This document shows positions 39,461 to 44,415 of a stretch of DNA of 45,619 nucleotides, one piece after another (position 1 is the first letter of the stretch; each line of letters begins with the position of its first letter). A model generated the notes under the pieces. That model was not told where the DNA came from, searched no databases, and saw nothing but the letters and a program-made list of their open reading frames with translations. The position numbers and the translations under genes were made by a program. The DNA is taken from assembly GCA_015523465.1 (NCBI GenBank), contig WAKF01000030.1, forward strand, positions 1 to 45,619, written 5' to 3'. Source of the stretch: Aeropyrum sp. (GTDB lineage Archaea > Thermoproteota > Thermoprotei_A > Sulfolobales > Acidilobaceae).

Positions 39461-41071
39461 GTGGAGGGCGGCTGCCGGGAGAGGGTTCTAGTTGTTGCAA
39501 CGCCAGGAGCTTCGCCTGGCGAGAGGCCTTGCGCGGAAGTCTACATACTCCGCCTTGGAGGAGTAGAGGGGCTCAGGCAAGCCCTCTCCCGGAGCCGCCC
39601 CCATAAGGTTGTAGTCGTCGTGGACTCTAGCCGCCCTGAGGCGGCTGCCTACGCCGCAGCAGTAGTTAAGGCTCTAGGCTACCGGGAGGTGGTGGTTGAG
39701 GCTCCTAACGGCCTGGATAGAATGGTTCTGGACGTTGCCGAGAAGGCCCTTTCAAGGCTTGGAGGCAGGCTTAGCGAGGAGGAGCTGATTGAGGCTGTCG
39801 CAGAGGTTTTTGAAGAGTTGGAGGGCCGGTGGAGGGCTATAGTGGAGGCTCTCTACAGCGGCCCGCTAGCGCCTCTAGCCAGTATGGCTACGCTCGTGGC
39901 AACCCTCTTCCTTGTATTCAGCGTCTCCACGGGCTTCCCCCTAGACCTTATACTCGCCAGCCTCGGCCTTCATGGGGCATCGAGCCTCGTAGGGGAACTG
40001 GCGCCCTCAAACCTAATATCAAGCCTCTTTGAAGGGGCGAGCCTGGCAGTGGAATCGTCTATCCCGGGAGCCGTGGGTAGCCTCTTCTCGGCAATACTGA
40101 ATGGTGTCGGCGTTGTAGCTAGCCTAGCGCCGGTAGTAGGGCTTACTGTGCTCGCTGTGGCGGCCCTTGAGGACTCGGGCTTGATGGCTAGGGTTGCAAT
40201 CGGCCTTAGACCCATCACAGCCCCCCTAGGCATGCCGTCTCAAGCCTTATACCCCCTACTCATAGCGACGGGCTGTAACGTGCCGGCAGTAGTCACTGCA
40301 GGAAGGCTGGGAGATGCGAGGCTACTTAAAGCCCTATCCCTCGCCGCCCCTTTAGTGCCATGTAGCGCGAGGCTCGCGGTCATAGCAGCCTTCAGCTTCG
40401 CCCTCTTCAAAAACCCTCTAATGCAGGCCGTCGCCGCGGCCAGCGTCTATGTAGCTTCCATAGTGCTAGCAACTATTGTAGTAGGAGTTGCATATAGGCT
40501 GCAGGGCGGTGGCGACCTCCCTAGGATCTCCCTAGACCTCCCGCCCCTCAAGAAGCCCAGTACCCCTGTGATCCTGGAGGCTACATTCGAGGCTGTAAGG
40601 GAGTTCTCGGTAAAGATAGCAGGGCCCGTGGCGGTGGTTGCAGCCCTCATATGGTCTGTGACCTCGCCGGACTCCCCTGAGGCGGCGAGGCTCTTAGGGG
40701 ACCTGCTCGCCAGCGTGATCTCCCCCCTATTCGCCCTAGCAGACATCCAAGGCCACGCCGCCGACGCTCTGGCGTTCGCTGCCGTGGCCGGAGCTGTAGC
40801 TAAGGAGATGGTGCTAGAAGCTTTAGCGGTCCAGGCAGGAACCCCCAACCCCTGGGATGCGGTAGAGGCTCTAGGCTTGACGCCCGCCCAGGCCTATGCA
40901 ACGCTACTCTTCTACACTCTATACACTCCATGCATAGCCACAGCAGCGGCCATAATAGCGGCTACAAGGAGCTTGAAGGTCCTAGCCGCAAGCTACCTAA
41001 TAAGCCTGGCTTCAGCCCTCACGTCAATGACACTCATATACACGCTCTTCGAGGTGATGCGCCTCGCCTAG
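39461..41071 (+). CDS. FeoB-like membrane transporter lacking a functional GTPase domain
   Basis: A 536-residue protein whose membrane part (about 130-536) follows ferrous iron transporter FeoB: ALEDSGLMARVA (about 235-246), the first gate motif ATGCNVPAV (Cys272), PLVPCSARLAVIAAF (Cys301), GAVAKEMVLEAL and the last YTPCIATAAAI. The first 100 residues resemble a collapsed G domain (VVVVVDSSRPEAAAYAAAVVKALGY takes the place of the strand after switch II). There is no P-loop GxxxxGK[ST], no DxxG and no NKxD, so GTP control is lost. Substrate is probably Fe2+ or another metal. GTG start follows GGAGGG. A cysteine-cluster frame continues past its stop in another phase. It neighbours cytochrome c assembly genes. 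Confidence 0.82.
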   Translation: MEGGCRERVLVVATPGASPGERPCAEVYILRLGGVEGLRQALSRSRPHKVVVVVDSSRPEAAAYAAAVVKALGYREVVVEAPNGLDRMVLDVAEKALSRLGGRLSEEELIEAVAEVFEELEGRWRAIVEALYSGPLAPLASMATLVATLFLVFSVSTGFPLDLILASLGLHGASSLVGELAPSNLISSLFEGASLAVESSIPGAVGSLFSAILNGVGVVASLAPVVGLTVLAVAALEDSGLMARVAIGLRPITAPLGMPSQALYPLLIATGCNVPAVVTAGRLGDARLLKALSLAAPLVPCSARLAVIAAFSFALFKNPLMQAVAAASVYVASIVLATIVVGVAYRLQGGGDLPRISLDLPPLKKPSTPVILEATFEAVREFSVKIAGPVAVVAALIWSVTSPDSPEAARLLGDLLASVISPLFALADIQGHAADALAFAAVAGAVAKEMVLEALAVQAGTPNPWDAVEALGLTPAQAYATLLFYTLYTPCIATAAAIIAATRSLKVLAASYLISLASALTSMTLIYTLFEVMRLA

Positions 41072-41421: not shown

Positions 41422-41946
41422 TCACCCCGTTATGGAGGCTTGCCTCTGCTGATAGCTGGAGTGGCACCCCTTAAGTATGGCGTCCACTTTGAGTAGAGGG
41501 GCTTCGTAGAGTGGTTTCACCCCATCAGGGCTTGGAAGCCCTATTACTACTGTCTCCCCTGGCATATAGATCCCTTGAACTATAACCTTTTCTTCGAAGA
41601 GGGGGCTTCCACCATACTTCGAAACGAACTCGGAGGCAGGGTACAACGCTACTACCATGAAGCCGTTGCCCCCTTTAAGGAGGAAGACCGCATACTCCCC
41701 CTCAGGGCCTTGCGCGATAGCGTAGACTCCACGCGCCTCCAAGGTGTAAGTCCCACCTTTATAGTTCATGAGTAGGATGCCATCGCCGAGGTCTACAAGG
41801 TCTCCCGTCACAGTGACCCTTGTAGGCGCACTTAGCTCTTTAAGGCTACCAACGTCGTTGTAGCTAGACTCTCTAATGCTAACGTATCCTAGGATCACTA
41901 TAGACGCTGCTAGCACGAGCACAGCGAGGAGGGCCTTAATCTTCAA
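41422..41946 (-). CDS. ccmE: Cytochrome c maturation heme chaperone CcmE, CXXXY variant
   Basis: A 174-residue protein with an N-terminal membrane helix (about 5-22) and an extracytoplasmic OB-like beta domain (VTVTGDLVDLGDGILLMNYKGG; VIVQGIYMPGETVVIG). The end reads APLLKVDAILKGCHSSY, aligning with the classical VLAKHDENY that carries the heme-binding histidine. Cys161 replaces that histidine and Tyr165 is kept, giving CXXXY. This is the CcmE variant described for archaea and some anaerobic bacteria, which goes with a System I lacking CcmH. TTG start after GGTGGG, overlapping the ccmC end by 11 bases, which supports co-translation and the assignment. Overall similarity to CcmE is otherwise low. 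Confidence 0.78.
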   Translation of the reverse strand: MKIKALLAVLVLAASIVILGYVSIRESSYNDVGSLKELSAPTRVTVTGDLVDLGDGILLMNYKGGTYTLEARGVYAIAQGPEGEYAVFLLKGGNGFMVVALYPASEFVSKYGGSPLFEEKVIVQGIYMPGETVVIGLPSPDGVKPLYEAPLLKVDAILKGCHSSYQQRQASITG

Positions 41947-42946
41947 CCCTGCCCACCCCCCTCCATGCGAGGGCTAGAGATAAACTAATCGCGGTGACGT
42001 GGATTACTAGGTTTAATGGAGTGCTCCAGTGTAATGACACTAGTATCCTGCCGTCATCAACTCTGACTATGTGGTTAATGAGGGTGCTAACTCCATCCTC
42101 TGTAAGCGGCGGATCTATCGGATTCATTACTGGGGGGTTAAAGGTGTAGGTCCTTCCCGTAGAGACTATCATCGAGGAGATCATGCCGTCCTCGCTCGTT
42201 ACAACCTCAAGCACCCTGTCACCCCCGCATAATGTGAGTGCGTAGGCTGCGACGGCGAGGCCGGCGATAGCATAGATGGCGGCTATCCTCCAGTCAGCGC
42301 TCTCCCCCCTTCCAGCAGTTAATGCAAGCGTTAGGGCTAAGAGAGGTATTATGGCTACGCGGGTTAATAGTAGAAGACCTCCTATACCCCCTGCAGAGAA
42401 CTCGGATACAGCTTCTCCGGTAGGATGAAGGCTTTGAAAGAGGTTAGAAGCCGCATAGCTCATAGGCACCATAGTGAACGCTGCAAGGGCGTAAGCTGCA
42501 GCTATCCTTCCTCTCCTCTCGGGATCCGCTATACTCGTCTTCAAGGGATGGTAGGCGGCGTAGGCTATGGCTAGAAGTAGGACGGCAGTCTCCTTGGGGT
42601 CCCAGTTCCAGGGGGCACCCCAGGACTCGCTCGCCCATAGGATCCCTGAAAGGAGAGTCGCTACGGCAAAGAAGAGTCCTACGGTGATGAAAGCGTCTAG
42701 ATACCTCAGCACGCTACTACCACCCTTTATCATGTAGAGGAGGCCTGTCAAGGCGGCGCCGGCGAATAGTAAGTATGTTGAGACTGCTATTGGCACGTGC
42801 AGGTAAATATTCCTGTAGGCTATGGGCGTCCCGAGGGGGACCGTCACGGGGAAGGGCCCCTTGAATATAGCGTAGACCGCGGTTACCATGTCCGCGGCTA
42901 AGAGGACTGTTATAAAGATGATCGTTATGCGGGAGAACTTGTCCAT
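41936..42946 (-). CDS. ccmC: Cytochrome c maturation protein CcmC (heme handling)
   Basis: A 336-residue membrane protein that presents heme to CcmE. The tryptophan-rich WWD motif is WGAPWNWDPKET, facing the outside. Flanking histidines appear in YLHVPIAVSTYLL and LFQSLHPTG, the expected axial ligands. Classical CcmC has six helices and about 245 residues. This protein has additional C-terminal sequence (about 240-310) with an outside segment rich in Val/Asp/Ser (GDRVLEVVTSEDG, MNPIDPPLTEDGVS) and a final helix. ATG start at 42946 with GGTGAGGAG upstream. It is first in a ccmC-ccmE operon and diverges from the thioredoxin-CcdA gene. Confidence 0.9.
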   Translation of the reverse strand: MDKFSRITIIFITVLLAADMVTAVYAIFKGPFPVTVPLGTPIAYRNIYLHVPIAVSTYLLFAGAALTGLLYMIKGGSSVLRYLDAFITVGLFFAVATLLSGILWASESWGAPWNWDPKETAVLLLAIAYAAYHPLKTSIADPERRGRIAAAYALAAFTMVPMSYAASNLFQSLHPTGEAVSEFSAGGIGGLLLLTRVAIIPLLALTLALTAGRGESADWRIAAIYAIAGLAVAAYALTLCGGDRVLEVVTSEDGMISSMIVSTGRTYTFNPPVMNPIDPPLTEDGVSTLINHIVRVDDGRILVSLHWSTPLNLVIHVTAISLSLALAWRGVGRVED

Positions 42947-43092: not shown

Positions 43093-44415
43093 TTGAGACT
43101 AGCTACTCCTAAAAGCTACACGGGATTAAGTGAGGCCTCCATATTGACCCTCGGAGTCCTTCTAGGATCTCTCGTAGCGTTCTACCTCCTCATGGCAGGC
43201 CCTTCTAGCGGGGCAGAGGAATTTTATCTGGGTTCCCTCGAGTTAAAGAGCGAGTCTAGCTTCAAGGCGGCGCTTAGGTCCTACGATAAGCTAGCGGCCA
43301 TGTTTAGTAGTGATACCTGCCCCGTATGCAGGAGTCTTGAGCCCGTGTGGAGGGATTTGGCTTCAGACATGGAAGGTTATAGGCTTGTCATAGTGAAGCT
43401 GACGCCCCTTACTGCCCGCCTCTTCGCCGAGGAGGGGGTCGTTGAGACGCCAACCTTTATAGTCTATGTAGGCGGGGATGAGGTGGCTAGGCTCGTGGGT
43501 GGGGTGAGGAAGGAGTATGCTGCAGAGTTCTTTAGAGCGTGGCTGAAGTCTGCATTGGAGGGCAGGGCTGGGGCGGAGGAGGTCCTAGAGAGAGCCTGCG
43601 GCGACTGCCATGCACTCGAGGAGGTTGTGAGGGCTCTTAGCGGGGCCAGGGGCATCCCCGAGTCCATCGACTTGATCTCTAAAGCCCACGACGGCGGGGA
43701 GGTCGGGGTAGAGGAGGCTCTAAAGGCTGTGGCTGCCGTAGCAACTCTAACCTGGGGTACTGGTCATGCAGAGGAGGCTACGAGGCTAGAAGTAGGTCTT
43801 CCGGATTCTCTGCCCCAAGTCTCGGTGGTTCTGGCGGCGCTTGTTGCGGGGGTAGCAGCAGGACTGTCGCCCTGCGTATTACCTATACTCGCGGCCTACA
43901 GCATGGCGTCAGCCGCCACGGGGGCGTCCAGGATCTTGTGGTCGCTGGAGGTTCTAGCTCTTTCAGCTCTAGGAGCGGCGGCGGCTGCAGGCCTGTTCGT
44001 GGCAGCCGGCAGCGCATTTACTACGCTCCAGGCCATAGCTCCTGCGGCCGCGGGAGCCACCCTAACAGTAGCAGGCCTCCTAGAGTACGCTGGCGTGGCG
44101 AGCTACATCTACGCTCCATGGGCTGGGAGGGGTAGGAGGCTTGGCTACGTGATCTACGGGCTTCTCGCCGTGCAATGTAGCCTCCCCATAGTGGCGGGGG
44201 CTATGCTCGCAGCGGCCTCGGGCTCACTTATAGGGCTAGCCTCTCTGACGGCTTTCTCGCTAGGCATAGCCCTGCCAGCGGCGGCATCTACGCTCTCAGC
44301 CAACCTAGCCGTCAAACTGTCAAGGCTCGGTAGCAGCGAGGCTAGGAGGGTCCTCGGCGCCATCATCGCTGCCGCAGGCCTCATACTCCTAGCTTCAAGC
44401 CTTGGCTTAGTATAG
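43093..44415 (+). CDS. Thioredoxin-CXXCH-CcdA fusion, thiol-disulfide reductant carrier
   Basis: A 440-residue protein. It has a signal anchor (about 15-35), a thioredoxin-like domain with active site CPVC (76-79) and cis-proline region VETPTFIVYVGGDE (about 117-130), a linker of about 90 residues containing CGDCH (169-173), and a C-terminal CcdA domain of about six helices with paired cysteines in LSPCVLPI (Cys261) and VQCSLPI (Cys362). CcdA passes electrons from cytoplasmic thioredoxin to the outside. Here the receiving domain is fused in front, the reverse of DsbD, whose thioredoxin is at the end. The role is presumably to keep apocytochrome c thiols reduced. TTG start after GGAGGGCAGG. 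CXXCH is also a heme c site; see findings. Confidence 0.82.
   Translation: MRLATPKSYTGLSEASILTLGVLLGSLVAFYLLMAGPSSGAEEFYLGSLELKSESSFKAALRSYDKLAAMFSSDTCPVCRSLEPVWRDLASDMEGYRLVIVKLTPLTARLFAEEGVVETPTFIVYVGGDEVARLVGGVRKEYAAEFFRAWLKSALEGRAGAEEVLERACGDCHALEEVVRALSGARGIPESIDLISKAHDGGEVGVEEALKAVAAVATLTWGTGHAEEATRLEVGLPDSLPQVSVVLAALVAGVAAGLSPCVLPILAAYSMASAATGASRILWSLEVLALSALGAAAAAGLFVAAGSAFTTLQAIAPAAAGATLTVAGLLEYAGVASYIYAPWAGRGRRLGYVIYGLLAVQCSLPIVAGAMLAAASGSLIGLASLTAFSLGIALPAAASTLSANLAVKLSRLGSSEARRVLGAIIAAAGLILLASSLGLV

Follow-up and report, generated by a model that had tools for sequence, protein, structure and literature searches.

In cytochrome c maturation, thiol reduction and haem attachment are regarded as distinct steps with the apocytochrome as their only meeting point. 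The core function of the transmembrane thiol reductases in this process can be read from what is known of the CcdA and thioredoxin families and from the gene neighbours: electrons are passed outward to keep the cysteines of apocytochromes reduced. In DsbD, the thioredoxin module lies behind the membrane domain, and we know of no CcdA/DsbD member in which a cytochrome c domain lies between thioredoxin and CcdA. In Pyrodictium delaneyi Hulk, the CcdA-superfamily gene Pdsh_09020 lies beside ccmF, ccmC and ccmB; the excerpt of that report cited here predicts that its product is functionally homologous to CcmH, and the five haem-binding proteins that it lists do not include this product (PMC5556600).

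Here, we present an analysis of a thioredoxin-CcdA (Trx-CcdA) gene of Aeropyrum sp. The window, i.e. the whole stretch of DNA analysed (45,619 nucleotides), is one entire contig out of the 92 that make up a 1.80-Mb archaeal genome. Based on the protein architecture, the position of a CXXCH motif, the fold predicted for the relatives and the ligands that they conserve, the absence of the domain in congeners, and the linkage to ccm genes, we conclude that the protein is probably a System I thiol reductase from a family whose relatives carry an inserted, predicted cytochrome c domain, and that the window copy has probably been cut down and appears to be on its way to losing this domain. Going by the gene order in the excerpt available, Pdsh_09020 is presumably the orthologue of the window gene, and the P. 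delaneyi locus L069 carries the triple Trx-cytochrome c-CcdA protein.

Table 1. Features of the Trx-CcdA gene and of the neighbouring maturation genes in the window
Feature	Coordinates	Strand	Basis
Trx-(reduced cytochrome c segment)-CcdA protein, 440 aa	43093..44415	+	Open frame, homologues
N-terminal membrane anchor, residues 10-34	43120..43194	+	Helix in model; hydropathy peak 17-35
Thioredoxin domain, residues 49-156	43237..43560	+	Pfam PF00085; structural match 3hhv
CPVC active site, residues 76-79	43318..43329	+	Sequence, alignment
Middle segment, residues 157-239, shortened counterpart of relatives' cytochrome c domain	43561..43809	+	Alignment position
CGDCH, residues 169-173, haem c attachment motif	43597..43611	+	Aligned with homologues' invariant CXXCH
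CcdA-type membrane domain, residues 240-440, with Cys261 and Cys362	43810..44412	+	Invariant columns; low-scoring DsbD_TM match in a relative
CcmF-like haem ligase gene, cut off by the contig end	44429..45619	+	PF01578; TIGR00353; order conserved in relatives
CcmC-like gene	41936..42946	-	PF01578; TIGR01191
CcmE-like gene, C-x-x-x-Y (CHSSY) near C terminus	41422..41946	-	Motif, size, neighbours, similarly placed homologues

The gene starts with a TTG codon. Because basic residues precede the membrane anchor, the N terminus is likely inside, which would place the thioredoxin domain outside the membrane. This domain scores 39.2 bits against PF00085 (cut-off 23.5) and matches the archaeal thioredoxin 3hhv with a Z score of 16.5 and an rmsd of 1.4 over 101 residues. 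For the CcdA half, the Pfam scan gave no PF02683 (DsbD_TM) match up to an E value of 1; in the relative L066, which can be aligned to this half, the same model scores 17.8 bits, which is below the cut-off of 27.1. S259, P260, C261, P264, Q361, C362 and P365 (SPC261xxP and QC362xxP) are identical in all 17 rows of the alignment, and the model of the protein (mean pLDDT 76) has seven or more helices after residue 240, where a CcdA/DsbD membrane domain would be expected to have six transmembrane helices. The entire protein contains six cysteines, namely the CPVC pair, the CGDCH pair and the CcdA pair. The initial annotation, which placed a CXXCH between a CPVC thioredoxin and a CcdA domain, is borne out by this architecture in an open frame; its remark that the order is the reverse of that in DsbD is also correct, but this order is the rule in the archaeal Trx-CcdA family.

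A CXXCH appeared anywhere in the protein in 54 of 100000 shuffles, and the corresponding DNA motif is not enriched genome-wide (59 matches versus 99 for a reversed control). Because of this lack of enrichment, the case for CGDCH rests on its position rather than on its occurrence. The motif lies 93 residues after the thioredoxin CXXC, compared with 94 to 110 residues in 20 homologues, and a chance origin was rejected on this position despite the genome-wide count.

The gene lies among genes for cytochrome c maturation. The CcmF-like gene is located directly 3', and the CcmC-like and CcmE-like genes are divergent from the Trx-CcdA gene. The CcmF-like and CcmC-like proteins score 61.5 and 87.8 bits, respectively, against PF01578, as well as 91.7 bits against TIGR00353 and 68.3 bits against TIGR01191, the latter two values both being below cut-off. 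The CcmE-like protein has no Pfam or NCBIfam match; its C-x-x-x-Y motif and its place suggest an archaeal CcmE, in which, according to the part of the literature cited here, a cysteine replaces the usual histidine (PMC3601427). CcmF lies directly downstream in 11 of the 13 named loci whose homologue is of full length (L063-L075), the exceptions being L064 and L074. The CcmF neighbours in L063 (6259-9237), L066 (6237-9248) and other loci are ~1000 residues each; in the one protein scanned, that of L066, Pfam spans only residues 94-532, and ~470 C-terminal residues have no assignment. The window also encodes, at 39461-41071 on the forward strand, a membrane protein of 536 aa that has two stretches matching Gate (nucleoside recognition) and no match to a GTPase domain, which we take to resemble the membrane part of FeoB. 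Elsewhere in the host genome there is at least one other probable cytochrome c (L229; G000:C77, 2353-2991), a 213-aa protein with a CTACH motif and a membrane helix at both ends, encoded ~3 kb from a second Trx-CcdA paralogue.

A profile of the fusion was searched in 214 genomes of the order and gave matches in 45. In the following, counts of 21 refer to the full-length rows (L034-L054) that span this profile, all of which are from outside the genus. CXXCH is present in 21 of 21 of these homologues, confirming conservation at the positions of C169, C172 and H173, for which the initial annotation had proposed a check. It is also present in the three fragments that reach the site (G053, G121 and the second copy in G171); the fragments in G033 and G181 begin downstream of it. 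In the alignment of the domain, C21, C24, H25, W39, M80 and L96 are invariant, and all 21 rows have both the CXXCH and the Met that is the expected sixth ligand. Pfam cytochrome models match the domain weakly, with Cytochrome_CBB3 found at E ≤ 1 in 20 of the 21 rows (best E value 2.3e-5) and Cytochrom_C in 15. A model built from 13 rows has a pLDDT of 91.5 and a pTM of 0.82. With this domain, all 50 matches listed by a VIA structural search are c-type cytochromes or proteins holding such a domain, at Z scores of 4.0 to 5.0; the best match among those listed has a modest Z score of 5.0 and an rmsd of 3.4 to 3.8 over 75 residues. Foldseek gave no matches for the domain model at E ≤ 0.001, a result that leaves room for a family absent from its databases. 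Because Foldseek alone is not significant, the assignment of a cytochrome c fold leans jointly on VIA, Pfam and the invariant residues. When the domain profile was run by sequence alone against solved structures (best E value 0.0016, mostly over the CXXCH stretch), the outcome was kept solely as a hint, since a TetR row and designed TPR rows were in the first ten.

Judged by alignment and predicted structure, the extra residues of the relatives are a putative class-I cytochrome c domain between Trx and CcdA, and we favour the prediction that this domain carries covalent haem. The initial annotation had raised covalent haem as one option and a second redox disulfide, as a built-in mimic of the apocytochrome, as another. 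At the level of the family, the first is favoured by the histidine conserved in 21 of 21 rows, the invariant Trp and Met, and the cytochrome fold, and the same features make the second unnecessary. For the window protein itself, the case for haem is weaker than for the family because its congeners lack the domain and the protein lacks the Met and the Trp.

The domain profile (E ≤ 1e-6) matched 25 places in 24 of 229 genomes of the class, all of them fusions that were already known, and no stand-alone relative of the domain was seen in these genomes at this threshold. Among 398 genomes drawn from the phylum, the sole match outside the order was in G324 and is without such a domain; this Trx-CcdA protein (L242), which belongs to a different family within the phylum, carries a cysteine pair (CEAGSC) in the linker between its two halves. 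One homologue (L055; G053:C1:447782-449316), whose genome is in two contigs, is encoded in two overlapping frames, with the break immediately ahead of the CXXCH; this is a frameshift or an assembly error. Two genomes encode two Trx-CcdA proteins each, of which only one has the cytochrome domain (L143 and L148 in G072; L144 and L043 in G170). The domain-free proteins of these pairs are encoded within ~7 kb of a multihaem (PF13435) gene, and in G072 each of the two adjoins its own CcmF; possibly, such pairs represent two maturation lines with different clients.

Our searches of the open-access literature did not turn up any account of a Trx-cytochrome c-CcdA architecture. A survey of archaeal cytochromes counts membrane-helix thioredoxin-family proteins with CXXCH among the frequent false positives; the fusion goes unmentioned in the sections of that survey available, and the Ignicoccus protein may be in its supplementary tables (PMC4429474). 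The cytochrome c domain of the family has apparently been overlooked so far. The family would add an overlooked monohaem cytochrome to the Pyrodictium, Ignicoccus-like and Acidilobaceae archaea.

Among five other Aeropyrum genomes, four encode an orthologue (G001, G002, G004 and G005), and all four orthologues are without the domain and both cysteines; no orthologue was found in the fifth (G003). The loss of both cysteines in close relatives, which the initial annotation had named in advance as speaking against its reading, is thus observed within the genus, where the whole domain is gone. We detected no remnants of the cytochrome domain above noise in eight domain-free homologues. In a tree based on the thioredoxin and CcdA columns (32 rows; the domain-bearing L044 and L054 and the fragment L150 were left out), the window protein is sister to three domain-free proteins of the same genus (90/92, not a starred branch) and its branch is long, with 1.6 changes per site. 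These four proteins belong to a starred group whose members include six domain-bearing proteins. The tree has four changes in domain presence, of which at least two are forced by firm branches. The simplest account is that the domain was lost stepwise in Aeropyrum and again in genus g28 of family f7, with the order of loss being one that we infer; the low-branching domain-free rows from G014 and G169 may never have had it. Because proteins of the same genus do without it, the cytochrome domain is not needed for the core function. A COX1 match with an E value below 1e-40 was found for eight of 10 domain-free and four of 19 domain-bearing rows (Fisher p 0.0045). However, we do not put forward an aerobic lifestyle as the cause of the loss, because firm branches offer only two independent pairs, which are too few for a test, and because G007, G011, G016, G033 and G121 keep the domain or a fragment and yet have strong COX1. 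A multihaem load was rejected as the cause, as PF13435 occurs in 15 of 37 genomes without a clean split.

We suggest the following model for the function of the family. Electrons would pass from the cytoplasm to the CcdA pair Cys261/Cys362 and from there to the CPVC of the outside thioredoxin, which would hold the CXXCH cysteines of apocytochromes reduced and ready for CcmF. In relatives, a putative monohaem class-I cytochrome c domain (CXXCH, Trp and Met ligand) inserted between the two halves would presumably be loaded with haem by the adjacent CcmF system; its most likely role is to trade electrons with the dithiol of the thioredoxin or to act as a redox sensor. The two kinds of electron transfer, by dithiol and by haem, would thereby converge in one polypeptide, and a thiol reductase with a cytochrome c domain would make dithiol and one-electron haem chemistry testable in a single protein. 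In the window lineage, the domain would have been cut down so far that the attachment motif is left with a few short helices, one step short of the complete loss in the other Aeropyrum genomes. The reduced copy in the window and the domain-free congeners constitute a natural deletion series for the purpose of the domain.

The window copy has lost roughly one third of the domain, along with the Trp and the Met. The distance from CXXCH to the SPC motif of CcdA is 90 residues, compared with 117 to 161 in the 20 relatives measured; the CXXCH is present, but there is no Met between residues 174 and 239 and hence no Met sixth ligand at the conserved place. A profile built without the window protein aligns only with its CXXCH stretch. 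Past the CXXCH, similarity to the homologues is no better than in shuffles, of which 383 in 1000 match the best score, and, therefore, homology of this part rests on position and motif. Neither the rest of the domain in another frame nor a frameshift was found within 43400-44000. Altogether, the window motif looks like what is left of a domain, a point beyond the initial annotation, and the protein looks like an intermediate in domain loss.

Whether the remaining motif does anything is a separate matter. To the idea that the segment is a decaying linker, with the motif left over and without function, we give somewhat less than an even chance: the lack of the domain in the four orthologues of the genus, the disappearance of similarity after the motif and the long branch fit it; however, it is unlikely that three motif residues would be kept over such a branch under free drift, unless the deletion was recent. 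More tentatively, CGDCH may still be functional and haem-loaded as a minimal site for haem c. Both cysteines and the histidine of the motif have been retained, whereas the other three invariant residues are gone, and the only histidines of the protein (173, 199 and 225) all lie in the middle segment, which makes a His-His haem possible, with His199 and His225 as candidate sixth ligands by their place in the sequence. The segment is modelled with four short helices (161-169, 175-184, 188-197 and 206-219). Moreover, System I, as described in the excerpt cited, attaches haem to almost any exported CXXCH and tolerates minimal sites (PMC6962350), so CGDCH could still be loaded. However, model confidence in this segment is just ~63-79 (block pLDDT), extra histidines are also found in the middle domain of eight of 20 relatives, and the Trp and the Met could have been lost together in a single deletion between their columns, so that the motif may have persisted without selection. 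We consider it unlikely that a built-in cytochrome matured by the system itself couples the c-haem/quinol pool to the dithiol pathway, possibly as a supply or a feedback sensor, and that the haem on the bare CXXCH of the window protein, possibly with two histidine ligands, still does so. Least probable, and in our view quite doubtful, is a CGDCH that works as a dithiol in a CcdA-thioredoxin relay or as a mimic of the apocytochrome: the cysteines do form exactly three pairs, of which a free outside pair could exchange with the others, and a linker pair occurs in the CEAGSC protein of the phylum, but 21 of 21 relatives keep a histidine and a cytochrome pocket that a dithiol does not need, and the domain-free orthologues exist without such a pair.

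Our preferred reading, a System I thiol reductase with a cytochrome c domain in relatives and a cut-down remnant in the window copy, can be set against known proteins. Class-I monohaem cytochromes, such as cytochrome c6 and the c domain of cd1 nitrite reductase, share the CXXCH, the Met ligand and the predicted fold with the relatives' domain; by comparison, the latter is embedded in a thiol reductase, and the window copy is without the Met and probably without most of the fold. PDB entry 2l4d, a weak row in the domain-profile search of solved structures, is presumably a Sco-cytochrome c fusion of the copper chaperone family; such a fusion shares a thioredoxin-fold module and a cytochrome c domain with the relatives but is not known to have a CcdA membrane domain. 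In a Shewanella dsbD mutant, the cytochrome c NapB reduces CcmG in a rescue pathway, as described in the part of the report cited (PMC8782879). Going by this description, a c-type cytochrome gives electrons to a thioredoxin-like maturation protein, as could be the case in the relatives; however, NapB and CcmG are separate proteins, while in the archaeal relatives the two modules are fused. The closest likeness is to the CcdA/DsbD transmembrane thiol reductases, which share the paired membrane cysteines (SPC and QC), the thioredoxin module and the ccm linkage with the window protein; in contrast to DsbD, the archaeal family has the thioredoxin module in front of the membrane domain rather than behind it, and the relatives of the window protein have a putative cytochrome c domain in between.
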